Part shown: positions 1-8,512 of the stretch, piece by piece
Position numbering within the stretch: the first letter of the stretch is position 1
How the letters are laid out: every line of letters starts with the position of its first letter
IMG/VR virus record: IMGVR_UViG_3300005096_000133
Location: 1 to 24,172 of that record
DNA length: 24,172 nt
DNA from: a virus
Direction: 5' to 3' (one strand)
Program-made: the position numbers and the translations under genes
Notes under the pieces: model-generated
What the model was told of the DNA's origin: nothing
What the model saw: only the letters and a program-made list of their open reading frames with translations
The model's database searches: none

Positions 1-23
1 TCCGCTGGATTTGTTTGTTATGT
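1..23 (+). repeat. Right half of an attC-like site (array continues upstream)
   Basis: The window opens with TCCGCTGGAT, then TTGTTTGTTATGT. This matches the right half (L'-R') of the complete site at 1281-1385 almost base for base. The R' core GTTATGT is at 17-23. Its left half lies outside the window, so at least one more cassette precedes. Confidence 0.75.
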
Positions 24-34
24 GAGGATTAATC

Positions 35-226
35 ATGGATGTACTAAATACAAAGCCTTTTGATGGATTCACCCAGCCACAACTTTTAGATATGTATTTT
101 TATTATACAGCGTATCGTGACGCATATTGTAGTGAAAATAATACCTTTGCTGCTGATATTGGGATAATTGATTTCTACATGTTGATGGCCCGGAAAGACG
201 GGAAGCCGGGGCTGCAAGCAGGGTGA
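35..226 (+). CDS. Hypothetical cassette protein (63 aa)
   Basis: This is the single gene of cassette 18-352. It starts with ATG 12 bases after the attC core and has TGAGGA just upstream as ribosome binding site. The protein is rich in aromatic residues in its first half (a run near residues 20-27 is Tyr/Phe-rich), has one Cys, and ends in a short basic Gly/Lys stretch. I do not recognise a family. About 45 untranslated bases separate the stop from the next attC site, more than for most genes in the array. Position directly after a recombination core, with its own binding site, is the main support. Function unknown. Confidence 0.6.
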   Translation: MDVLNTKPFDGFTQPQLLDMYFYYTAYRDAYCSENNTFAADIGIIDFYMLMARKDGKPGLQAG

Positions 227-269
227 CGATTTAATCAACGCTTTGTTTGTAGTCCCGCAGTATTCAAGC

Positions 270-358
270 ACATAACGACCACGATCAGCGAGGGGCTGGG
301 AAATGTTGGAGCGCTTAAAACAGAAGGCCAGCCCTTCCGCTAGATTAACTTGTTAGGT
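270..358 (+). repeat. attC-like recombination site A
   Basis: R'' core is ACATAAC (270-276) and R' core is GTTAGGT (352-358). The arms GATCAGCGAGGGGCTGGG and the complement of CCCAGCCCTTCCGCTAGATT pair with few bulges, giving an imperfect hairpin of about 89 bases. It belongs to the GATCAGCG sub-group together with site C. Predicted cut is after G352. Confidence 0.8.
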
Positions 359-381
359 TGCGCTGATGATAGGAGCGAGGA

Positions 382-561
382 ATGGCAATTAAGAAAGAAA
401 TGCTCCACCAAATAAGAGAGTTCATTGACGACCAGAACATTGACATTGATTGGTTTACGGCACACATTACCGTTAACTTTGACCCTTCCTTGATGACGAT
501 TACAATAGCCATAAAAGATATGGCAGAGGATGAATTTAATTGGCTGATGCAAGCAAACTAA
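382..561 (+). CDS. Hypothetical cassette protein (59 aa)
   Basis: The only gene of cassette 353-637, starting at ATG 382 with AGGAGCGAGGA immediately upstream. The 59-residue product begins MAIKKEMLHQ and ends FNWLMQAN. It has an amphipathic Lys/Glu-rich start, then alternating hydrophobic residues (TVNFDPSLMTITIAI) that would suit a beta hairpin. The TAA stop lies inside the R'' core AACTAAC of the next attC, as for several other genes in the array. No family recognised; function unknown. Confidence 0.65.
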   Translation: MAIKKEMLHQIREFIDDQNIDIDWFTAHITVNFDPSLMTITIAIKDMAEDEFNWLMQAN

Positions 562-643
562 CGAGATAGTTGAGGTGCGGCAATAGACTGTTCCCGCCTT
601 GACCGCAGAGGTAATTTCCGTCAACTCGAACGTTTTGTTAGAT
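556..643 (+). repeat. attC-like recombination site B
   Basis: R'' core AACTAAC (556-562) overlaps the stop codon of the preceding gene. R' core GTTAGAT (637-643) fits GTTRRRY exactly. The arm containing AGTTGAGGTGCGG pairs with CCGTCAACTCGAACG before TTTTGTTAG. Length 88 bases. Predicted cut is after G637. Confidence 0.8.
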
Positions 644-684
644 TTTGAACTGGCTCTGGCTGCAAAGCAGACATAGGGGTTAAT

Positions 685-1260
685 GTGAAAGTCTTGGTGG
701 GCTGCGAAGAAAACGGAAAAGTGAGGGATGCTTTTAAGGCAAAAGGCCATGACGCTTGGAGTTGCGATGTTTTACCAACACGACGGCCAGGCAAGCATCT
801 ACAGATGGATATTTTTGAGGCGCTCGTTAATTACGGCCCTTGGGATGTGGTAATACTGCACCCGGATTGCACAAAACTTACCGTCGCCGGGAATCGGTGG
901 TATGGAGAAGGCACAGCGGGCTACTACGAGCGTATTGCTGCGATGAAATGGACCGAGACCCTTTGGCACGTGGCAAAGCTGACTGCAAGGGTCGGCGTAG
1001 CGCTTGAAAACCCCGTAGGCGTGCTCGGGAAGACAAGCATGAGAAAACCGACACAATATATTCACCCCTGGCAATATGGGCACGGAGAGACGAAAAAAAC
1101 ATGCCTTTGGTTGGATCGCCTGCCTCAGCTAAAACCAACAAATATTGTTGAGGGACGGGCGCAGCGAGTTTGGAAGATGCCCCCGAGTGCTGACAGAAAA
1201 CGACTGAGAAGCGAAACATATGACGGTTGGTGCGAGGCAATGGCAGATCAATGGGGCTAA
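685..1260 (+). CDS. DNA cytosine methyltransferase-like phage protein
   Basis: The 191-residue product matches a family common in phages and usually annotated as a DNA C5-methyltransferase-like protein. The N-terminus (MKVLVGCEENGKVRDAF) resembles the SAM-binding first strand and motif I region of C5 methylases. HPDC at 59-62 stands where the catalytic Pro-Cys motif IV lies, and ENP at 109-111 stands where the ENV motif VI lies. The conserved PWQYGHGETKKTCLW (128-142) and MPPSADR (165-171) blocks are typical of this family. It is short, with no clear target-recognition domain, so activity is uncertain; base modification or evasion of host restriction is an inference. It starts at GTG 685 after AGGGGT and is the only gene of cassette 638-1379, the longest in the array. 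Confidence 0.8.
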   Translation: MKVLVGCEENGKVRDAFKAKGHDAWSCDVLPTRRPGKHLQMDIFEALVNYGPWDVVILHPDCTKLTVAGNRWYGEGTAGYYERIAAMKWTETLWHVAKLTARVGVALENPVGVLGKTSMRKPTQYIHPWQYGHGETKKTCLWLDRLPQLKPTNIVEGRAQRVWKMPPSADRKRLRSETYDGWCEAMADQWG

Positions 1261-1280
1261 TGCCTTTGCGCCGGTTTAAA

Positions 1281-1385
1281 ATCTAACGCCAATGATCAGC
1301 GGATGCCCTGAGCCGTTGGATAAGCACAGAATTAATCGATGATTCGACTGTGCTGGTTGCATTCCGCTGGATCTATTTGTTAGGT
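1281..1385 (+). repeat. attC-like recombination site C
   Basis: R'' core ATCTAAC (1281-1287) and R' core GTTAGGT (1379-1385) both fit the RYYYAAC/GTTRRRY consensus exactly. The left arm CCAATGATCAGCGGATGC pairs with GCATTCCGCTGGATCTATTT. Length 105 bases. The gene upstream ends 20 bases before the site, so coding and site do not overlap here. Confidence 0.85.
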
Positions 1386-1419
1386 GTGACGTGGAGTCGT
1401 TTAAAGCTAGGAGATAATA

Positions 1420-1605
1420 ATGAAAACATTTCTGATTATATACGATCATAATTCTGGTATTGCAGAACTTAGTAATGTTGGAATTTTTAAATCCTACAAT
1501 AAGTTAGAGGCAATAAAGATTGCAAAAGAACAATGGAACACTACTGCGTCATTAAAGGCGTTTGATTTGGACGAGTGCCAAAATGGTTGGAGTTATTACA
1601 CCTAA
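1420..1605 (+). CDS. Hypothetical cassette protein (61 aa)
   Basis: First of two genes in cassette 1380-2018. ATG 1420 follows TAGGAGATAATA, a good ribosome binding site. The product begins MKTFLIIYDHNSGIAEL, continues with an IFKSYNKLEAIKIAKEQW segment that looks like beta strand then helix, and ends NGWSYYT. The pattern resembles small phage proteins that adopt a ferredoxin-like or ssDNA-mimic fold, but I cannot name a family. It is separated from the next gene by 45 bases that contain no attC. Function unknown. Confidence 0.65.
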   Translation: MKTFLIIYDHNSGIAELSNVGIFKSYNKLEAIKIAKEQWNTTASLKAFDLDECQNGWSYYT

Positions 1606-1650
1606 TGATTATAATAACTTGCGGCGAAACGCAGAAAGGATATCAACGAA

Positions 1651-1926
1651 ATGAAATACCAACGTGACAATAAGACTGATTGTATAAAACAAAACTGTTT
1701 AGATTTTGCAGACTGCGTACCGGGGAAAACAGAAGCCGATTCCGTCAAAGTTGATGGGCTGGTTAGTCATAAAAATATATCAAAAGAGGAACAAGCTTTT
1801 GTTGACGGAATAATTGAATTATGGCCACTGCTAAGGAAAGGAACAAGGCGCGATGTCCTTAAAAAATTAGGGGAGAAAAAGCCTCCGGTTTTAGCCGAGT
1901 TTATGTACCAATTTATAAATGGCTAA
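1651..1926 (+). CDS. Hypothetical cassette protein (91 aa)
   Basis: Second gene of cassette 1380-2018, starting at ATG 1651 after AAAGGA with long spacing. The N-terminal 40 residues are polar and contain three Cys (positions near 11, 16 and 22). The C-terminal half is helical and basic (GIIELWPLLRKGTRRDVLKK), then PPVLAEFMYQFING. The TAA stop is within the R'' core GGCTAAC of site D. No family recognised; the arrangement suggests a small regulatory or DNA-associated protein, but nothing proves this. Confidence 0.6.
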   Translation: MKYQRDNKTDCIKQNCLDFADCVPGKTEADSVKVDGLVSHKNISKEEQAFVDGIIELWPLLRKGTRRDVLKKLGEKKPPVLAEFMYQFING

Positions 1927-2024
1927 CGGTGAAGATAACCGGCGGCGGCCTGACGCTCGCATACCACCGAATTATTCGCAAATTGCAGAAGTATTTTCCG
2001 TCCGCGTTGATTAAATTGTTAGAT
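1921..2024 (+). repeat. attC-like recombination site D
   Basis: R'' core GGCTAAC (1921-1927) overlaps a stop codon; R' core GTTAGAT (2018-2024) fits GTTRRRY. Left arm GATAACCGGCGGCGG pairs with CCGTCCGCGTTGATTAAATT. Its loop shares TTGCAGAAGTAT with site H, so D and H look closely related. Length 104 bases. Confidence 0.85.
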
Positions 2025-2044
2025 TCTTTTTAAACGGAGACGAA

Positions 2045-2236
2045 ATGATTGATACAAAAATTTCTTTAAATATGGAAAACGCAAAAAAGTCTTTTGATGA
2101 AGTTTGCCTTGCAAGGTGCTGTGTAATGGCAACTGAAAGCCTGAACCCGGAAGAGTTCGACAGTTTTATTGTTGCTTACAACACGCTGGCAGAAAGACGC
2201 ACCTTACAAAACAAACCGATAGCCTGCGAAGACTAA
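2045..2236 (+). CDS. Hypothetical cassette protein (63 aa)
   Basis: Forward gene of cassette 2019-2612. ATG 2045 is preceded by ACGGAGACGAA. The product is mostly helical with a Cys-containing motif CLARCCVMA near residues 22-30 and an acidic NPEEFDSFIV segment. The stop lies in GACTAAC, an R''-like heptamer, but no convincing right half follows. Instead the 3' end runs into the 3' end of a reverse-strand gene (stops overlap by three bases). No family recognised. Confidence 0.6.
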   Translation: MIDTKISLNMENAKKSFDEVCLARCCVMATESLNPEEFDSFIVAYNTLAERRTLQNKPIACED

Positions 2237-2454
2237 CGCACAAATTTTGTTTTTACATTTTTGTTTATGTACGCGTTGAGTCCGTCACCGGACAATGCAA
2301 GGCGTTTCATTGTTTCTACGTGCTGCTGTCCCGCTGATTGATAGCTGTACGTGTAAGTTTTGGCAGTACCTTTAAATTTTACGGTGATGGATGTTTCGTT
2401 GATTTCAAAACTATCAACCCCAGAATCTCGGTCGGTGTCTGCGTACTTTTGCAT
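2233..2454 (-). CDS. KTSC-like conserved small protein, reverse orientation in cassette
   Basis: The 73-residue product contains ITVKFKGTAKTYTYSYQSAG, two or three beta strands like KTSC-type domains, followed by HVETMKRLALSGDGLNAYINKNV. That second block matches a widespread small uncharacterised protein family as I recall it; function unknown. Start ATG 2454 follows the strong binding site AAAAGGAGGGG (about 2457-2467 on the reverse strand). It is the only minus-strand gene of the array. Reverse-oriented cassette genes usually need their own promoter, and I could not identify a clear one upstream. It shares cassette 2019-2612 with the forward gene 2045-2236. Confidence 0.75.
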   Translation of the reverse strand: MQKYADTDRDSGVDSFEINETSITVKFKGTAKTYTYSYQSAGQQHVETMKRLALSGDGLNAYINKNVKTKFVR

Positions 2455-2481
2455 GATGCCCCTCCTTTTGATGGTTTTAGA

Positions 2482-2618
2482 ATCTAACGACCGCTGATAA
2501 CCGGATTACGGATTAAGGAGTAGAGATTATGGGAAGCGCAAATTGTGGGTTTGAACACCCTGAGAACGAATGCGAAAAACAGAAGCATAGTAATTCCGCG
2601 TTGATTGGCTTGTTAGAA
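2482..2618 (+). repeat. attC-like recombination site E (long, carries a start codon)
   Basis: R'' core ATCTAAC (2482-2488) fits consensus; R' core GTTAGAA (2612-2618) differs only at the last base. Left arm GATAACCGGATTAC pairs with TAATTCCGCGTTGATTGGC. At 137 bases it is longer than most sites here. Its loop holds AAGGAG (2515-2520) and ATG 2529, opening a reading frame that crosses the R' core into the next cassette. Confidence 0.8.
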
Positions 2619-2783
2619 GCCGAAACCTTGGCGAAGCGTTTTCATGATACATACGAAAGATTGGCCCCGCAGTATGGATATTTAACAAGAAAGCTGTCAC
2701 GGGTGGATTGGGAAGATGTGTCGACAAAAAATAAAAAGTTGATGATCGCAACGTGCCAAGAGTTGTTAAACGAAGGCATCTAA
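2529..2783 (+). CDS. Conserved small phage protein whose frame opens inside attC site E
   Basis: Residues from about 32 on (ETLAKRFHDTYERLAPQYGY ... KKLMIATCQELL) match a small protein family common in phages, function unknown as far as I know. The first ~30 residues, including CGFEHPENEC, are encoded by the loop and right arm of site E. The ATG has a good AAGGAG with 8-base spacing. The conserved part has no convincing binding site of its own; a TTG at about 2629 is the only obvious internal candidate. So the product is either an 84-residue junction fusion or a shorter protein from a weak internal start. The stop is in the R'' core of site F. Confidence 0.7.
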   Translation: MGSANCGFEHPENECEKQKHSNSALIGLLEAETLAKRFHDTYERLAPQYGYLTRKLSRVDWEDVSTKNKKLMIATCQELLNEGI

Positions 2784-2883
2784 CGAGAAACGATAACCGG
2801 CTGCGACGTGCAGCCTCAACCAGCACTGACCTATTCGAGACACGCGCATGTATCACCAGTCCGCGTTGATTTGATGGTTAGCC
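2778..2883 (+). repeat. attC-like recombination site F
   Basis: R'' core ATCTAAC (2778-2784) overlaps the preceding stop codon; R' core is GTTAGCC (2877-2883). Left arm GATAACCGGCTGCG pairs with CCAGTCCGCGTTGATTTGATG. Length 106 bases. Predicted cut is after G2877. Confidence 0.85.
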
Positions 2884-2896
2884 AAAAGGGGAAATT

Positions 2897-3196
2897 ATGG
2901 ACTATAGCATCGAAAATGATTTACGGAAAATAGCGGGAATGCGTGCCGATGGATTGATAGAGAATTCTACCGCATGGAAAGCAGCGGAAGAAATCGCAAA
3001 GCTTAAAGCAGGCCTTGCATCGTGTAGCAGGGCACGCTCAGCCGAAGAAAGGGAATGTGCTGAATTACGAGAGAAAATATCGGATATGATAGAACGCTGC
3101 ATAGAAATTGTATATTCCGAAAGTTCTTATGAGGGACAGGCGAAAAGAACGGCCGACGCAATAGCAGAAGAATTCAATTTGCCGAAGGCTGGCTAA
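2897..3196 (+). CDS. Hypothetical coiled-coil cassette protein (99 aa)
   Basis: The gene of cassette 2878-3293, with AAAAGGGGAAATT directly before ATG 2897. The product is almost entirely helical and charged: an N-terminal helix to about residue 35, a heptad-like stretch (EERECAELREKISDMIERCI, about 50-69), and a C-terminal amphipathic helix AKRTADAIAEEFNL. Small phage proteins of this composition are often annotated only as hypothetical. Stop TAA is three bases before the AAC of site G. A structural or binding role is possible but not shown. Confidence 0.65.
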   Translation: MDYSIENDLRKIAGMRADGLIENSTAWKAAEEIAKLKAGLASCSRARSAEERECAELREKISDMIERCIEIVYSESSYEGQAKRTADAIAEEFNLPKAG

Positions 3197-3299
3197 TGAA
3201 CGCCGATAAGCGGCTGGCGCTGAGCTGTACGAAATTAGCGTATAACCTATCGTGTATCTGGGCTGCTGGTTCCAGTCCGACTTGATTTGCTTGTTATAT
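3195..3299 (+). repeat. attC-like recombination site G
   Basis: The R'' core is degenerate (AATGAAC, 3195-3201) and R' is GTTATAT (3293-3299). The arms are still clear: AACGCCGATAAGCGGCTGG against CCAGTCCGACTTGATTTGC. Length 105 bases. It forms the left border of the tRNA cassette. Confidence 0.75.
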
Positions 3300-3305
3300 T
3301 TTATT

Positions 3306-3381
3306 GCCATCGTAGCCAAATTGGTTCGGCACCTCCCTTGTAAGGAGATCTATGCTGGTTCGAATCCTGTCGATGGCTCCA
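3306..3381 (+). tRNA. tRNA-Thr (UGU), in a gene cassette
   Basis: A 76-base cloverleaf. Acceptor GCCATCG pairs perfectly with CGATGGC, followed by T73 and an encoded CCA. D arm GCC/GGC; anticodon arm CCTCC-CTTGTAA-GGAGA (one C-A mismatch at the first pair) gives anticodon TGT. T arm is GCTGG-TTCGAAT-CCTGT with one T-T mismatch. It lies seven bases after attC site G, in a cassette with no protein gene. Loss of some pairing suggests relaxed but probably functional folding. Confidence 0.88.
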
Positions 3382-3385
3382 GTAA

Positions 3386-3461
3386 ATAGGCGCATGTTCC
3401 AAGGCTGGCGAATTGGTCTCCAAAACCGATTGGGTAGGTTCGATTCCTACCGCCTATGCCA
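3386..3461 (+). tRNA. tRNA-Trp (CCA), in a gene cassette
   Basis: Acceptor ATAGGCG pairs perfectly with CGCCTAT; G73 and CCA are encoded. Anticodon arm TTGGT-CTCCAAA-ACCGA gives anticodon CCA (Trp). T arm GTAGG-TTCGATT-CCTAC is perfect. The D arm is weak (mainly G-T pairs) and base 8 is C instead of the usual T. It follows the Thr tRNA by four bases and precedes site H by eight. Trp identity is supported by the typical CTCCAAA loop. Confidence 0.88.
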
Positions 3462-3469
3462 ATTTTAAA

Positions 3470-3575
3470 ATATAACGGTTCGTGATAACCGGCGGCGGTA
3501 GAAAGGTTTGGCATGGTACGAATAAATCAATTTTGCAGAGAAGTATATTCCGTCCGGTTCATTGGCTTGTTATGC
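3470..3575 (+). repeat. attC-like recombination site H
   Basis: R'' core ATATAAC (3470-3476), R' core GTTATGC (3569-3575). Left arm GATAACCGGCGGCGG pairs with CCGTCCGGTTCATTGGC. Loop sequence close to site D. Length 106 bases. It closes the two-tRNA cassette. Confidence 0.82.
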
Positions 3576-3592
3576 GCGATTTGGAGAAAGAA

Positions 3593-3796
3593 ATGAATTA
3601 CGATAAAACAGTTTTTGTTTACCAACGGAAAGATAGTATAACCGAAATACGTGCTGATTATATAGAAACTGCCCGTATGCTTGAGGATGACAAAGAGTGG
3701 GAACATATAGCGACACTCGAACCAAGGGCATACATTAAAGCGATTCTGTCGGAATATCCTTCGCTGGTTAGGAAACTCAAAGGTGAAAGCGTATAA
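3593..3796 (+). CDS. Hypothetical cassette protein (67 aa)
   Basis: ATG 3593 after TTGGAGAAAGAA is preferred over an upstream in-frame GTG that would translate the attC site and has no binding site. The product starts MNYDKTVFVYQRKDSITEI, a likely beta hairpin, followed by two helices (DYIETARMLEDDKEWEHIA and PRAYIKAILSEYPSLVRKL). The stop is inside the R'' core GTATAAC of site I. It is the gene of cassette 3570-3954. Not recognised; function unknown. Confidence 0.7.
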   Translation: MNYDKTVFVYQRKDSITEIRADYIETARMLEDDKEWEHIATLEPRAYIKAILSEYPSLVRKLKGESV

Positions 3797-3960
3797 CGAG
3801 GAGCGATAACCGGAGGCGGCGAGATGGATGAATATGGAAGGAAATATGAATGCAGACTTTATGACAGAGTTTTGTGTAAAGGACAACCCTGCAAATCCTG
3901 TAGCCGGATGGTTCGCGGAAGACAGAAGCCAGTTCCTTCCGGTTGATTATTTGGTTAGTT
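3791..3960 (+). repeat. attC-like recombination site I (170 bases, carries a small ORF)
   Basis: R'' core GTATAAC (3791-3797), R' core GTTAGTT (3954-3960). Left arm GATAACCGGAGGCGG pairs with CCTTCCGGTTGATTATTT. It is the longest site in the array. The GGAGG in its left arm can serve as ribosome binding site for the 40-codon ORF at 3824, which stops inside the right arm. Confidence 0.75.
3824..3946 (+). CDS. Cys-rich 40-aa ORF inside attC site I
   Basis: ATG 3824 lies 8 bases after GGAGG in the left arm of site I, and the TGA stop is in the right arm, so the ORF is confined to the recombination site. The product begins MDEYGRKYECRLYDRVLC and contains a C-x4-C-x2-C cluster (CKGQPCKSC), plus an earlier Cys at 10, which would suit zinc binding. 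The C-terminus is basic. A good binding site and the Cys pattern argue for a real gene. Its length and location leave doubt. No family recognised. Confidence 0.5.
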   Translation: MDEYGRKYECRLYDRVLCKGQPCKSCSRMVRGRQKPVPSG

Positions 3961-3986
3961 TGCGCTGCTTCCTACGGAGAAACGAT

Positions 3987-4130
3987 ATGAATAAAGGAAA
4001 ATTGCTTTCTGGGGCTCTTGTAATGCTGGTTATTGCCTCGTTGATGCACGTTTACAATTCTCCCTCTGAGGGGCCCTGGTCTGCTGGGTCTGTTGTGCTG
4101 TTCTGGATTGGCCTAGCCCAAGAAAACTAA
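3987..4130 (+). CDS. Small membrane protein, last cassette (47 aa)
   Basis: ATG 3987 is preceded by GGAGAAACGAT. The 47-residue product starts MNKGKLLSGALVMLVIASLM, a short basic N-terminus with one hydrophobic segment (about 6-19) that reads as a signal-anchor helix. A second hydrophobic stretch VVLFWIGLA sits near the C-terminus. The stop is in the R''-like core AACTAAC of the final half-site. An earlier in-frame ATG (3828) would have to translate most of site I and is less likely. Function unknown. Confidence 0.6.
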   Translation: MNKGKLLSGALVMLVIASLMHVYNSPSEGPWSAGSVVLFWIGLAQEN

Positions 4131-4152
4131 CAGGTTGATAGCCGGGACCCGG
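4125..4152 (+). repeat. Left half of an attC-like site (3' end of the array)
   Basis: AACTAAC at 4125-4131 followed by AGGTTGATAGCCGGG resembles the left arms of the other sites (compare CTAACG...GATAACCGG). No matching right half with GTTRRRY is found downstream. It marks where the array stops and looks like a decayed or truncated site. Confidence 0.5.
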
Positions 4153-4204
4153 TGATATCCAATATACAGGGATAAGATTAGAAAAAACACAAAAAGGGTT
4201 AAAT

Positions 4205-4534
4205 GTGACAAATCGACGCATAATCAGAGCTTTTTTCGAGGTCGGCACAGCATTAAACTCAGCCTCAGCAATAAACACATCAAACGTTGAAAATATAGTC
4301 CAGACGAGCGGCCGAGGCGATGCGGGATGGCTGCTGAATTGGTATTGCGACATGCGCGGACTAATGGAAAATAATGATCTGAGAGATTTATATTCGTGTC
4401 ACATCGATAGTCGGCCGATGGATAGATCAGAATCGTGCAGGATTGGGAGGCGGTTGCGAAACTTTTGGGATAAACTGAACCGCAACCGCCAATATTACGA
4501 GGATGTGGCAGAGAGGTATTATTCTAATTGCTGA
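4205..4534 (+). CDS. Hypothetical protein (109 aa) beside the control region
   Basis: GTG 4205 follows AAAAAGGGTTAAAT, a weak binding site; the ATG two bases earlier is immediately followed by a stop. The product starts MTNRRIIRAFFEVGTALNSAS and has a C-terminal basic aromatic helix (RRLRNFWDKLNRNRQYY, about 82-98), which would suit nucleic-acid binding. It is rich in Arg and Asn with four Cys. It ends convergent with the minus-strand operon, overlapping the HTH-like gene by 16 bases. It is the first gene after the cassette array and has no attC of its own. I do not recognise a family. Confidence 0.5.
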   Translation: MTNRRIIRAFFEVGTALNSASAINTSNVENIVQTSGRGDAGWLLNWYCDMRGLMENNDLRDLYSCHIDSRPMDRSESCRIGRRLRNFWDKLNRNRQYYEDVAERYYSNC

Positions 4535-4695
4535 TCCATATCTTTATAGCGATTTGGCAATCCCCGGACCGTGCATTGAGTTCTGAAACTATCCTCTGCG
4601 ATCAACTGCCGCAACCGCCTGGGCGTAATCTTCCAGACCTTTGCCGCGTCCTTGAGTTTCCAGCCCTTACCAAGTATCGTTTGTTTCAGATCCAT
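4519..4695 (-). CDS. Small HTH-like protein
   Basis: The 58-residue product begins MDLKQTILGKGWKLKDAAKV and continues WKITPRRLRQLIAED. This reads as a helix-turn-helix: a first helix with AAKVW, a turn, then a recognition helix with PRRLRQLI. I chose ATG 4695 because AAAAGGAGCG lies just upstream (4701-4710 on the reverse strand); an in-frame start six codons earlier has no such signal. It is the last gene of the minus-strand operon read from the promoter at 5406-5433, so it may act as a small repressor, excisionase or Cro-like regulator. Which one cannot be told from sequence. Confidence 0.7.
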   Translation of the reverse strand: MDLKQTILGKGWKLKDAAKVWKITPRRLRQLIAEDSFRTQCTVRGLPNRYKDMDQQLE

Positions 4696-4709
4696 TTCAC
4701 CGCTCCTTT

Positions 4710-4820
4710 TCAATCAGGAATTAAATCATACCCGTAATGCCTTGCAACCGTAACAATCAAGTCTTTTACCGTCAGGAAAGTAATTTCTCGGCCGTCAAAT
4801 TTAACATTGATTCGTTTCAT
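4710..4820 (-). CDS. Hypothetical 36-aa protein
   Basis: A short ORF between two better-supported minus-strand genes. The product begins MKRINVKFDGREITFLTVKD and ends HYGYDLIPD, with a clean beta-beta-alpha pattern. The start (ATG ending at 4820) has only a weak GTGGCCC upstream. Its stop lies 14 bases before the start of the HTH-like gene, so the two would be translated in series. Support is position, spacing and plausible protein composition. Not recognised. Confidence 0.5.
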   Translation of the reverse strand: MKRINVKFDGREITFLTVKDLIVTVARHYGYDLIPD

Positions 4821-4845
4821 GATGGGCCACTTTATTTGATTATTT

Positions 4846-5115
4846 TTATGCCAAAAACCACTTACCGTCGATTTTTTCAAATCCGCCTTGATTTTTCAGA
4901 TAATCTCCAAACTCATCATCGTCAGATTCGAGCATGTAGAAATCACCATCTACAACATTATGCTGGTTAACAAGCAGATCCTCGACCTGGCAGATAGTTT
5001 CGACCTCTTCCACCCATTCGATGCAGTCAAATAACGCCTCATCATACGTTGCGCCTGCACCAAAAATAGCATAACCACTTTGCACGACTGCAAATTTAAT
5101 TTCGTTGTTAGCCAT
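4846..5115 (-). CDS. Acidic hypothetical protein (89 aa)
   Basis: Start ATG 5115 has AAAAGGGG upstream with good spacing. The product begins MANNEIKFAVVQSGYAIFGA, resembling a small beta-rich domain with a GATYDEALFDCIEWVEE helix, and carries a DDDEFGDYL acidic patch near residues 65-73. The net charge is strongly negative, as in many early phage proteins that act as DNA mimics, but no such role is shown. It lies 25 bases downstream of the gene at 5141-5374 in the same operon. Confidence 0.7.
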   Translation of the reverse strand: MANNEIKFAVVQSGYAIFGAGATYDEALFDCIEWVEEVETICQVEDLLVNQHNVVDGDFYMLESDDDEFGDYLKNQGGFEKIDGKWFLA

Positions 5116-5140
5116 GATTCACCCCTTTTGTTTGGGTTAT

Positions 5141-5374
5141 TTAAAAGCAATCGCTAATGCAAAAATCTTCCCCGGCCTCTTCAAGTTCTTGGTATTTTGT
5201 GTAGGCATCTTTCCAGATGTCGAATATATCGTCGTCAATTTCATCGTCGCTATCTTGCGCGTCACTGACATAGCAAAATTCGTTCACAAAACCAGTAAGC
5301 AGCGAAGTTTCAGAACCATACGCCAACTCAGCTTCCATTTCCGCTACGTAATTTGCCAATTCGCTTAATTTCAT
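5141..5374 (-). CDS. Acidic hypothetical protein (77 aa), first gene of leftward operon
   Basis: I start it at ATG 5374 (MKLSELANYVAEMEAELAYG) because GGAGG lies 5-9 bases upstream; a start four codons earlier would include that signal in the coding sequence. It is very acidic, with QDSDDEIDDDIFDIW near residues 41-55, and is otherwise helical. It is the promoter-proximal gene of the leftward operon, about 30 bases from the TATTAT box. Early expression and an inhibitory or DNA-mimic role are possible inferences. No family recognised. Confidence 0.7.
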   Translation of the reverse strand: MKLSELANYVAEMEAELAYGSETSLLTGFVNEFCYVSDAQDSDDEIDDDIFDIWKDAYTKYQELEEAGEDFCISDCF

Positions 5375-5405
5375 GTCGTCCTCCATGTGTGTTTGAGTTA
5401 TTTAT

Positions 5406-5433
5406 ATAATAGCAGAAGCATATTTCCTGTCAA
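5406..5433 (-). promoter_or_regulatory. Leftward sigma70-type promoter
   Basis: On the reverse strand: TTGACA (5428-5433), 16 bases, TATTAT (5406-5411). The -35 box is a perfect consensus match. It drives the four minus-strand genes 5374 to 4519 and stands divergent to the promoter at 5485-5513. Confidence 0.75.
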
Positions 5434-6460: not shown

Positions 6461-6536
6461 GCCGCTGTAGCTCAGTTGGGAGAGCGCCTGTTTTGTACTC
6501 AGGCTGTCGCGGGTTCGATTCCTGCCAGCGGCTCCA
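6461..6536 (+). tRNA. tRNA-Thr (UGU), between lysis and packaging genes
   Basis: Acceptor GCCGCTG pairs perfectly with CAGCGGC, then T and an encoded CCA. D arm GCTC/GAGC is perfect. Anticodon arm CCTGT-TTTGTAC-TCAGG (one T-T mismatch next to the loop) gives anticodon TGT. T arm GCGGG-TTCGATT-CCTGC is perfect. It is a better cloverleaf than the Thr tRNA at 3306 and has the same anticodon but a different body sequence. Confidence 0.93.
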
Positions 6537-6787: not shown

Positions 6788-6830
6788 TGGCAGATGTCTA
6801 GATTGCGGAGGATATAAACGAGGTGGGTAA
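6747..6830 (+). CDS. 27-aa zinc-ribbon miniprotein
   Basis: ATG 6747 follows AAGAGAGG with six-base spacing. The product MGRCPKCGMTLTPDGRCLDC continues GGYKRGG. CPKCG and CLDCGG are two CxxC knuckles 11 residues apart, the minimal zinc-ribbon pattern. It ends eight bases into the terminase small subunit gene (start 6823), so the two may be translationally coupled. Such miniproteins are easily missed by gene callers. Function unknown; nucleic-acid or protein binding is typical of the fold. Confidence 0.65.
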   Translation: MGRCPKCGMTLTPDGRCLDCGGYKRGG

Positions 6831-7200
6831 CAAAGGACGGCCGACAGATTATAAAAAAGAGTATGCAGCGCAAGCAACAGGACTCTGCAGACTCGGATAT
6901 ATAGATAAGGATCTCGGTAATTATTTTGGCGTTTCAGAGCAAACGATTAATGCGTGGAAGAAAAAGTTTCCAGATTTTCTTGAGGCCATAAAAGAAGGTA
7001 AGGACGATTCGGACCGAATGGTTGTCGATTCTCTGTTCAGAAAAGCCATTGATGGAGACACCACCGCTATGATTTTCTGGCTGAAGAATAGGCAAAAACG
7101 TAATTGGCGCGACAAACAGGATCACGAGTTAACTGGGAAAGATGGCGAGCCATTAGGATTTATCATTGTCCCACAAAAAAATAGCGTGGAAGCCGACTGA
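6823..7200 (+). CDS. terS: Terminase small subunit
   Basis: This 125-residue protein binds phage DNA at the packaging site and feeds it to the large subunit. An N-terminal HTH is visible: ATGLCRLGYIDKDLGNYFGV then SEQTINAWKKKFPDFLEAIK (about residues 15-55). SLFRKAIDGDTTAMIFWLKN (66-85) and RQKRNWRD match the oligomerisation and C-terminal blocks of terminase small subunits. It starts at GTG 6823 with GGAGG about 11 bases upstream. The 3' end overlaps the large subunit gene by 35 bases, and order and overlap support the assignment. Confidence 0.88.
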   Translation: MGNKGRPTDYKKEYAAQATGLCRLGYIDKDLGNYFGVSEQTINAWKKKFPDFLEAIKEGKDDSDRMVVDSLFRKAIDGDTTAMIFWLKNRQKRNWRDKQDHELTGKDGEPLGFIIVPQKNSVEAD

Positions 7201-8512
7201 CAAACAGACCCTGTTTCTCGCGGCTCCAGAAAATGAAGTTTTGTACGGCGGTGCCGCAGGTGGTGGGAAAAGCGATGCTCTCCTAGTTGATGCTCTCGGT
7301 TTGCAGCAAAACGCGCTTGAGTACAACAATTACAAAGCACTTATTATCCGCCGGACATTTCAAGAACTGCGGGAGCTGATAGACAGAAGCCGTGAGATCT
7401 ACCGGGTTGTATCTCCTGCCGCTAAATATCTGGCGAGCGATAAATACTGGCGATTCCCCAGTGGCGCAGTGATTGAGTTCGGATATTTGGAGCGCGAGCA
7501 GGATAGGCACCAATATCAAGGAAGACAATATCAGTGGATTGGATGGGATGAGTTAACACAATGGCCTACGCCAATCTCCTACGAGTATTTAATGTCTCGG
7601 CTGCGGAGCGTAAACCCTAAAATACAATGTTACTGCCGTGCGACGACAAACCCTGGCGGTATTGGGCACAAATGGGTTAAGGCCAGATGGGGGATTGACG
7701 ATAGCGGAGCCGCCACCTCGTCGATGGTAGAGATCGACGGGCGAGTGTTCAGGCGTAGATTTATTCCCGCAAAGCTCTCCGATAACATCCATTTTGACAA
7801 TAGCGGGTACCGAGAGCAATTAATGCAGCTCTCAGAGGCCGACAGACGCGCGTTGTTGGATGGACGCTGGGATAACCCTGAGATAACTGGGGCTGTTTAT
7901 GGCGATGAATTGGGAGAGGCTCAGCTTTCAGGGCGGATAAGATCCGTCCCGCACGAGAAAGGATTGCCAGTTTATACGTTCTGGGACCTAGGTCGCAATG
8001 ATACCACAGCGATCTGGTTCATGCAGGACATCTCTGGCGAGTATCGATTCATCGATTATTACGAGGACAGCGGTCAGCAAATAGCGGATTACGCCAGAGT
8101 TCTCCAGGATCGACAGTATTTGTATGGTGGGCATTATTTGCCTCACGATGGAGCTGTTACCGATTTATCAGGGTTTGAATCAAGACGAGATATTTTAGAG
8201 CGTGCTGGCCTGCATCCGATTGATATCGTTCCGAGAATTAAAAGTCTCGGACTCGGGATTGAAATGACACGCAGGGTCCTCCACAAATGCTATTTCGATA
8301 AGACAAAATGTGCAGGTGGAATTAATGCATTGAGATCATATCGACGTAGGTTCAATGCTGATCTCCAACAGTATAGCGATGATCCGATCCACGACTGGTC
8401 AAGCAATGGATCAGACGCATTTAGGCAATTTGCCCAAGGGTATTGCCCTACTCCGGTTATGCGCAACTCGGCAAGGCCGGTAAAAGTAATCTCATTTAGC
8501 GGATGGACATAA
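7166..8512 (+). CDS. terL: Terminase large subunit (packaging ATPase/nuclease)
   Basis: The motor that pumps DNA into the prohead and cuts it. Walker A GGAAGGGKS is at residues 28-36. Walker B with catalytic acid is WIGWDE at 124-129, and the coupling motif TTNPGG is at 160-165. The nuclease domain starts at FWDLGRNDTTAIWF (about 272-285, first acid Asp274), with further conserved LPHDGA and DPIHDWSSNGSDAFR blocks. Length 448 is normal. The start is TTG 7166 with TAGGA upstream; no ATG/GTG lies between it and the first conserved residues. The stop overlaps the portal start as TAATG. Confidence 0.95.
   Translation: MSHKKIAWKPTDKQTLFLAAPENEVLYGGAAGGGKSDALLVDALGLQQNALEYNNYKALIIRRTFQELRELIDRSREIYRVVSPAAKYLASDKYWRFPSGAVIEFGYLEREQDRHQYQGRQYQWIGWDELTQWPTPISYEYLMSRLRSVNPKIQCYCRATTNPGGIGHKWVKARWGIDDSGAATSSMVEIDGRVFRRRFIPAKLSDNIHFDNSGYREQLMQLSEADRRALLDGRWDNPEITGAVYGDELGEAQLSGRIRSVPHEKGLPVYTFWDLGRNDTTAIWFMQDISGEYRFIDYYEDSGQQIADYARVLQDRQYLYGGHYLPHDGAVTDLSGFESRRDILERAGLHPIDIVPRIKSLGLGIEMTRRVLHKCYFDKTKCAGGINALRSYRRRFNADLQQYSDDPIHDWSSNGSDAFRQFAQGYCPTPVMRNSARPVKVISFSGWT

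Follow-up and report, generated by a model that had tools for sequence, protein, structure and literature searches.

Integron cassettes are best known for the spread of antibiotic-resistance genes. In the usual view they carry protein genes, and the tRNA genes of phages come from ordinary recombination. The locus described here raises the question of whether tRNA genes can themselves be the cargo of an integron-type cassette inside a phage. The window, that is, the whole stretch of DNA that was analysed, is the entire IMG/VR record IMGVR_UViG_3300005096_000133 (24,172 bases), probably a fragment. PHROGs matches to terminase, portal and major head protein mark it as DNA of a tailed phage, podovirus-like in character. 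Searches for close relatives returned one distant contig with TerL (30% identity) and, with the internal virion protein, 32-36% identity among the matches listed. A cassette array lies upstream of the terminase genes (Table 1).

Table 1. Features of the window, with the evidence on which each assignment is based.
Feature	Position	Strand	Basis and remarks
Cassette array (CALIN)	1-4135	+	Model R1; own-end matching; array continues past the contig's left end
attC sites of the array	1-23 (partial), 271-358, 557-643, 1282-1385, 1601-1768, 1922-2024, 2483-2618, 2779-2883, 3192-3299, 3471-3575, 3792-3960	+	Model R1
Left flanking attC; its R′ (3293-3299) is the left junction of the tRNA cassette	3192-3299	+	R1, 46.7 bits; training-set member
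Integron-type cassette, tRNA-only, 276 bp	3294-3569	+	G^TT cut points of flanking R′ boxes; complementarity of start and own R″ over 11 bases
tRNA-Thr(UGU), encoded CCA	3306-3381	+	ARAGORN; RF00005, 52.3 bits
tRNA-Trp(CCA), encoded CCA, odd D-arm, 6-bp anticodon stem	3386-3461	+	ARAGORN; RF00005, 24.0 bits; class model R2, 87.4 bits (training-set member)
D-arm string CATGTTCCAAGGCTGGCGA, common to other phage tRNA-Trp/tRNA-Ala genes	3393-3411	+	
attC of the tRNA cassette (R″ 3470-3476, R′ 3569-3575)	3471-3575	+	R1, 84.2 bits; training-set member
Second tRNA-Thr(UGU), outside the array	6461-6536	+	ARAGORN; RF00005, 63.9 bits
Terminase small subunit (6823-7200) and large subunit (7166-8512)	6823-8512	+	PHROGs
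Portal or head-tail adaptor	start 8503		PHROGs
Major head protein	start 11712		PHROGs
Internal virion protein	start 13898		PHROGs

Anatomy of the tRNA cassette

Direct reading of the sequence gives GTTATAT (3293-3299) as the left R′ box and GTTATGC (3569-3575) as the right one. Cutting each at G^TT delimits a unit from 3294 to 3569, exactly the bounds proposed in an earlier note on this DNA. Both boxes, as well as the R″ box ATATAAC (3470-3476), conform to the RYYYAAC/GTTRRRY core-box pattern, each lying one variable position off the consensus. Within it, 12 leader bases precede the two tRNA genes, and 8 trailer bases separate these from an attC site some 100 bases long. The ARAGORN calls at 3306-3381 and 3386-3461 coincide with what the earlier note had recognised, Thr-UGU and Trp-CCA genes four bases apart and with encoded CCA, and these two genes are the sole cargo. 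No plus-strand frame of 60 amino acids starting with ATG, GTG or TTG is contained in the cassette, in agreement with the claim that it lacks a protein ORF, and the frames that touch it overrun its ends.

In a true cassette, the first bases (counted from the previous junction) and the cassette's own R″ derive from one attC stem. This relationship provides a test, independent of the model score, in which nine variable bases per cassette are compared against shuffles. Cassettes of the window match their own R″ at 6.4 of 9 positions on average, versus 3.9 when shuffled. Own-end matching above all 20,000 shuffles (none was as good) is characteristic of units that are mobile separately. For the tRNA cassette the match is 8 of 9 positions; its first bases are reverse-complementary to its own R″ along 11 bases, which ties for the best value in the window. 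The cassettes of two other phage contigs, G003 (7.25 versus 4.36 shuffled) and G287 (6.73 versus 3.29), also match at their own ends; R′ and R″ within one site show no match above background (3.4 in the window). Cassette 15 of G287 has the same end sequence as the tRNA cassette, GTTATATTTTA, yet contains an ORF-like stretch and no tRNA. That an attC-bounded phage cassette has the tRNAs as its cargo we regard as well supported.

The attC array and its relatives

Covariance model R1 identifies ten full and one partial attC site in the window. The sites bounding the tRNA cassette, previously described as attC-like, score 46.7 and 84.2 bits, both being among the four window sites included in the R1 training set. 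The six full sites outside the training set score 31-51 bits, and no R1 match occurs in 338 kb of other, tRNA-rich phage contigs. Minimum-free-energy folding of individual attC bottom strands did not yield clean attC hairpins, and pairing was therefore assessed across 30 aligned sites (A1). The L″/L′ inverted repeat is apparent there: paired boxes hold in 99.1% of cells, compensatory changes occur at 2 pairs and slid structures drop to 22-49% pairing.

With these sites and no TIGR02249 match, the window contains a CALIN (at least two close attC sites, no integrase) and not a complete integron, which has intI and attI on the same element. The contig being a fragment, the absence of intI speaks for this record only. 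The last cassette has an R″-like end box, AACTAAC, and no matching R′ after it; the array end, within 4118-4190, looks truncated or degenerate. The remaining cassettes hold small ORFs without Pfam matches, one of which is a DNA methyltransferase by PHROGs (685-1260). Cassette 6 has a minus-strand ORF (2233-2454).

A pattern for the R″-L″ half, TAACGN{5,6}GATAACCGGCNGCG, retrieved 57 stretches from one-genome-per-species bacterial contigs, many of them from Desulfuromonadales (Desulfuromonas, Malonomonas, Desulfuromusa), and occurs in five viral contigs as well. The boxes of the attC of the tRNA cassette are as in Desulfuromonadales sites. Several Desulfobacterota genomes encode IntI above the curated cut-off, and in three genomes (L071, L073, L075) TIGR02249 matches above cut-off have same-type attC sites no more than about 1 kb away, associating this attC type with integron integrases. 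Judged from the attC type alone, the host of the phage is probably a Desulfuromonadales-like bacterium. Between the window and 277 Desulfuromonadia genomes, matches were confined to attC, save for one stretch (L170) that is 71% identical to the minus-strand ORF of cassette 6 and has no attC detected near it.

At permissive thresholds, sites of the same type were found in the phage contigs G001 (6), G002 (4), G003 (9), G286 (18) and G287 (38), the arrays of G286 being shared with G287. Cassette shuffling between these last two was considered and dismissed, as their site order is identical with no sign of movement. A 58-kb phage contig, IMGVR_UViG_3300026196_000002 (L106-L108), has 38 same-type sites and no tyrosine recombinase; the sites form two arrays, at 9.2-19.7 kb and at 48.4-50.9 kb, of which the larger directly precedes the terminase genes. 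The main array of G002, G003 and G287 has replication/recombination genes on one side and terS/terL on the other; the window array likewise precedes terS. The window, G002 and G003 have large terminases from different PHROGs, and window proteins have no match in the compared parts of G001-G003. No PF00589 tyrosine recombinase was found in G001, G002, G003, G286 or G287, and no TIGR02249 match in the other phage array contigs where this was tested.

The database search for tRNAs between attC sites that the earlier note had suggested singles out cassette 3294-3569: it alone has tRNAs, out of 62 cassettes from phages (10 of them in the window) and 42 from bacteria that share this attC type. In all, no other tRNA was found in about 94 further cassettes of this type, nor do other phage arrays of this type contain tRNAs, and it is to this type, the only one searched, that the rarity applies. 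A combined pattern, with a T-arm directly before this attC half, had no convincing match in viral contigs; its two matches in the 277 Desulfuromonadia genomes were at chance level and, by eye, not tRNAs. In a 235-kb phage (L070, 933-1045) a tRNA-Ile is followed by a lone attC-like half site (TAACG..GATAAGCGG), a candidate discarded for want of support from the attC model. Neither a second copy of the tRNA cassette nor a circular form or empty site was found, nor, in open-access full texts, any report of a tRNA-bearing cassette.

The tRNA genes of the cassette

ARAGORN finds three tRNAs in the window. The earlier description of both cassette genes as complete cloverleaves stands for tRNA-Thr, which scores 52.3 bits against an RF00005 cut-off of 29. 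It does not extend to tRNA-Trp, which is accepted by ARAGORN and falls below the same cut-off (24.0 bits) because its D-arm is non-canonical; the acceptor, anticodon and T stems are intact.

The CATGTTCCAAGGCTGGCGA pattern, with two positions free, retrieved 67 viral stretches, one of them by chance. Anticodons in the other 66 are CCA (19), UGC (45), CGC (1) and UGC with a misfit anticodon stem (1). With the window's, these make 46 distinct sequences. Loci of the class are window 3386-3461, L085-L096, L114-L168, L065, L190 and L191. Across 39 aligned genes, the acceptor stem, the 6-bp anticodon stem and the T-stem covary, both partners having changed in 18 of 18 pairs, with a covariation score of 1.07 versus 0.26 shuffled. 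Ala members have G3:U70 and A73, Trp members G73. The near-fixed D-arm of the class, CATGTTCC.AGG.TGGCGA, has three G.U pairs and no U8/A14; the search pattern included the D-arm, so the alignment is in part bound to show it as invariant. By our reading of alignment A2, the D-stem in canonical numbering would be U10.G25, G11-C24, U12.G23 and U13.G22, with C8, C14, C15 and U21 replacing the usual residues and G18G19 retained.

Class model R2 assigns 68-89 bits to members and at most 38 bits to all others, in loci with many ordinary tRNAs. Further members obtained with R2 or BLAST vary chiefly in D-loop length; one pair of these loci has anticodon GGC, again Ala, and Trp and Ala are the only isotypes seen. 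Members in Pseudomonas phage VCM and Mycobacterium phage MrMagoo are annotated as tRNA-Ala and one in Bacillus phage Mater as pseudo-tRNA. ARAGORN misses most of the class. In some phages Trp and Ala members adjoin (L086, 2881-3029).

A host origin was considered for both cassette genes. For tRNA-Thr, the best host gene is 78% identical, a level that many tRNA-Thr genes may reach among themselves. For the tRNA-Trp class, the single D-arm pattern match in the 277 Desulfuromonadia genomes is a chance one and not a tRNA. By comparison with these genomes the cassette tRNA-Trp is of phage type, and since its class was not found in them the cargo looks phage-derived; this suggests descent from phage tRNA genes and not from the host chromosome.

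The Thr-UGU gene outside the array shares the anticodon of the cassette gene and 47 of 76 bases without gaps; it may provide dosage or insurance against host tRNA cleavage. ACA accounts for 33% of Thr codons in phage structural genes versus 25% in host-proxy ORFs, a codon preference that gives weak support for a tRNA need. A consensus scan of the plus strand found no promoter-like site just upstream of the tRNA cassette, making expression by read-through plausible. The region 4519-5433, which separates the array from the plus-strand terminase genes, has small minus-strand ORFs preceded by a promoter-like site (5433-5406) with 11 of 12 consensus bases.

Interpretation and known systems

Homologous or illegitimate recombination might have brought the tRNA genes into an array that already existed, so that they lie between two attC sites without forming a mobile unit. 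Phages often acquire tRNAs through recombination, and such an entry would fit both the single occurrence among 62 phage cassettes and the failure to find a second copy. It would be expected to leave remnants of earlier cargo, for which the short leader and trailer leave no room, and it does not account for a cassette start that complements its own R″ as well as any in the window; we hold it to be quite unlikely. Very improbable is a chimera in which the assembler joined a bacterial integron piece to phage structural genes. The contig does come from a single assembly of one metagenome, with the array at one end, a possible join near 4135-4205 and an attC type that is that of bacterial chromosomes. 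Three other phage contigs, however, have same-type arrays directly upstream of terS/terL, GC content is similar in the array (0.44) and the structural part (0.46), and the tRNA-Trp class is phage-type.

The genes could also be decaying, with no working tRNA produced and the cassette a mere passenger. The sub-threshold RF00005 score of tRNA-Trp, the pseudo-tRNA annotation of its counterpart in phage Mater and the presence of Thr-UGU again at 6461-6536 would be in keeping with this. But the odd D-arm is common to 66 other phage genes, the other three stems covary at all 18 pairs and are intact in the window's tRNA-Trp, and Ala members retain G3:U70. A shared odd D-arm, covarying stems and a kept G3:U70 indicate selection, not decay, which we consider unlikely.

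The reading we favour, and think likely to be right, sees the 276-bp unit as an integron gene cassette with two tRNA genes as cargo, in a phage attC cluster without integrase. A tRNA-only integron-type cassette in phage we take to be real; its movement and expression we infer from sequence. Of the earlier proposal that tRNAs are mobilised here as cassette cargo, the part concerning cargo of an attC-bounded phage cassette holds, and mobilisation would fall to a host IntI. That phage arrays are without tyrosine recombinase while Desulfobacterota have IntI beside the same attC points to action in trans by an integrase of the host. Qi et al. (2023, PMC9892861) described integrase-free attC clusters in phages, lytic ones included, and recombination of lytic-phage attC sites by IntI1 in E. 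coli, which makes such action in trans plausible. The host enzyme would act on the folded single strand of the phage attC sites and could excise or insert the cassette in phage DNA. Transcription of the array would run towards the terminase genes; the tRNAs, presumably freed by ordinary host tRNA processing, would supplement ACA and UGG decoding during infection. A route for gaining tRNA genes is thus a possible reading of the cassette's anatomy. To a broader proposal we give an even chance: phages of Desulfuromonadales-type hosts would keep integrase-free arrays before the terminase, with host IntI acting in trans and phage tRNAs circulating as cassettes, and the tRNA-Trp moved here would belong to a Trp/Ala-only phage tRNA architecture (near-fixed D-arm, three G.U pairs, 6-bp anticodon stem) that we did not find described.

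A tRNA-only phage cassette points to an additional route by which viruses may acquire translation genes. Site-specific recombination, with the host providing the enzyme, could add, remove and rearrange tRNA genes, and these could move between phages and bacterial integrons. The tRNA-Trp gene, for its part, gives access to a class of phage tRNAs whose core is unusual and most of which a standard tRNA finder overlooks.

The window resembles the phage CALINs of Qi et al. (2023, PMC9892861) in having attC clusters without integrase. Some of those CALINs have DNA methyltransferase cassettes, and their attC sites are active with IntI1. tRNA is nowhere mentioned in that study, whereas one cassette of the window has tRNAs only; unlike in those CALINs, several phages here have arrays of one attC type at the terminase. 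Deltaproteobacterial sedentary chromosomal integrons, whose attC type was modelled by Ghaly et al. (2021, PMC8352920), are related through the attC boxes of the window, which match Desulfuromonadales chromosomal sites, some of them beside IntI. In contrast to these integrons, the window array is phage-borne, lies on a fragment without IntI and includes tRNA cargo, seen in 0 of the 42 bacterial cassettes. With phage tRNA gene clusters the window shares tandem tRNAs with encoded CCA, and the Trp class occurs in such clusters; unlike theirs, the two tRNAs described here form a single array cassette with attC sites at either end.
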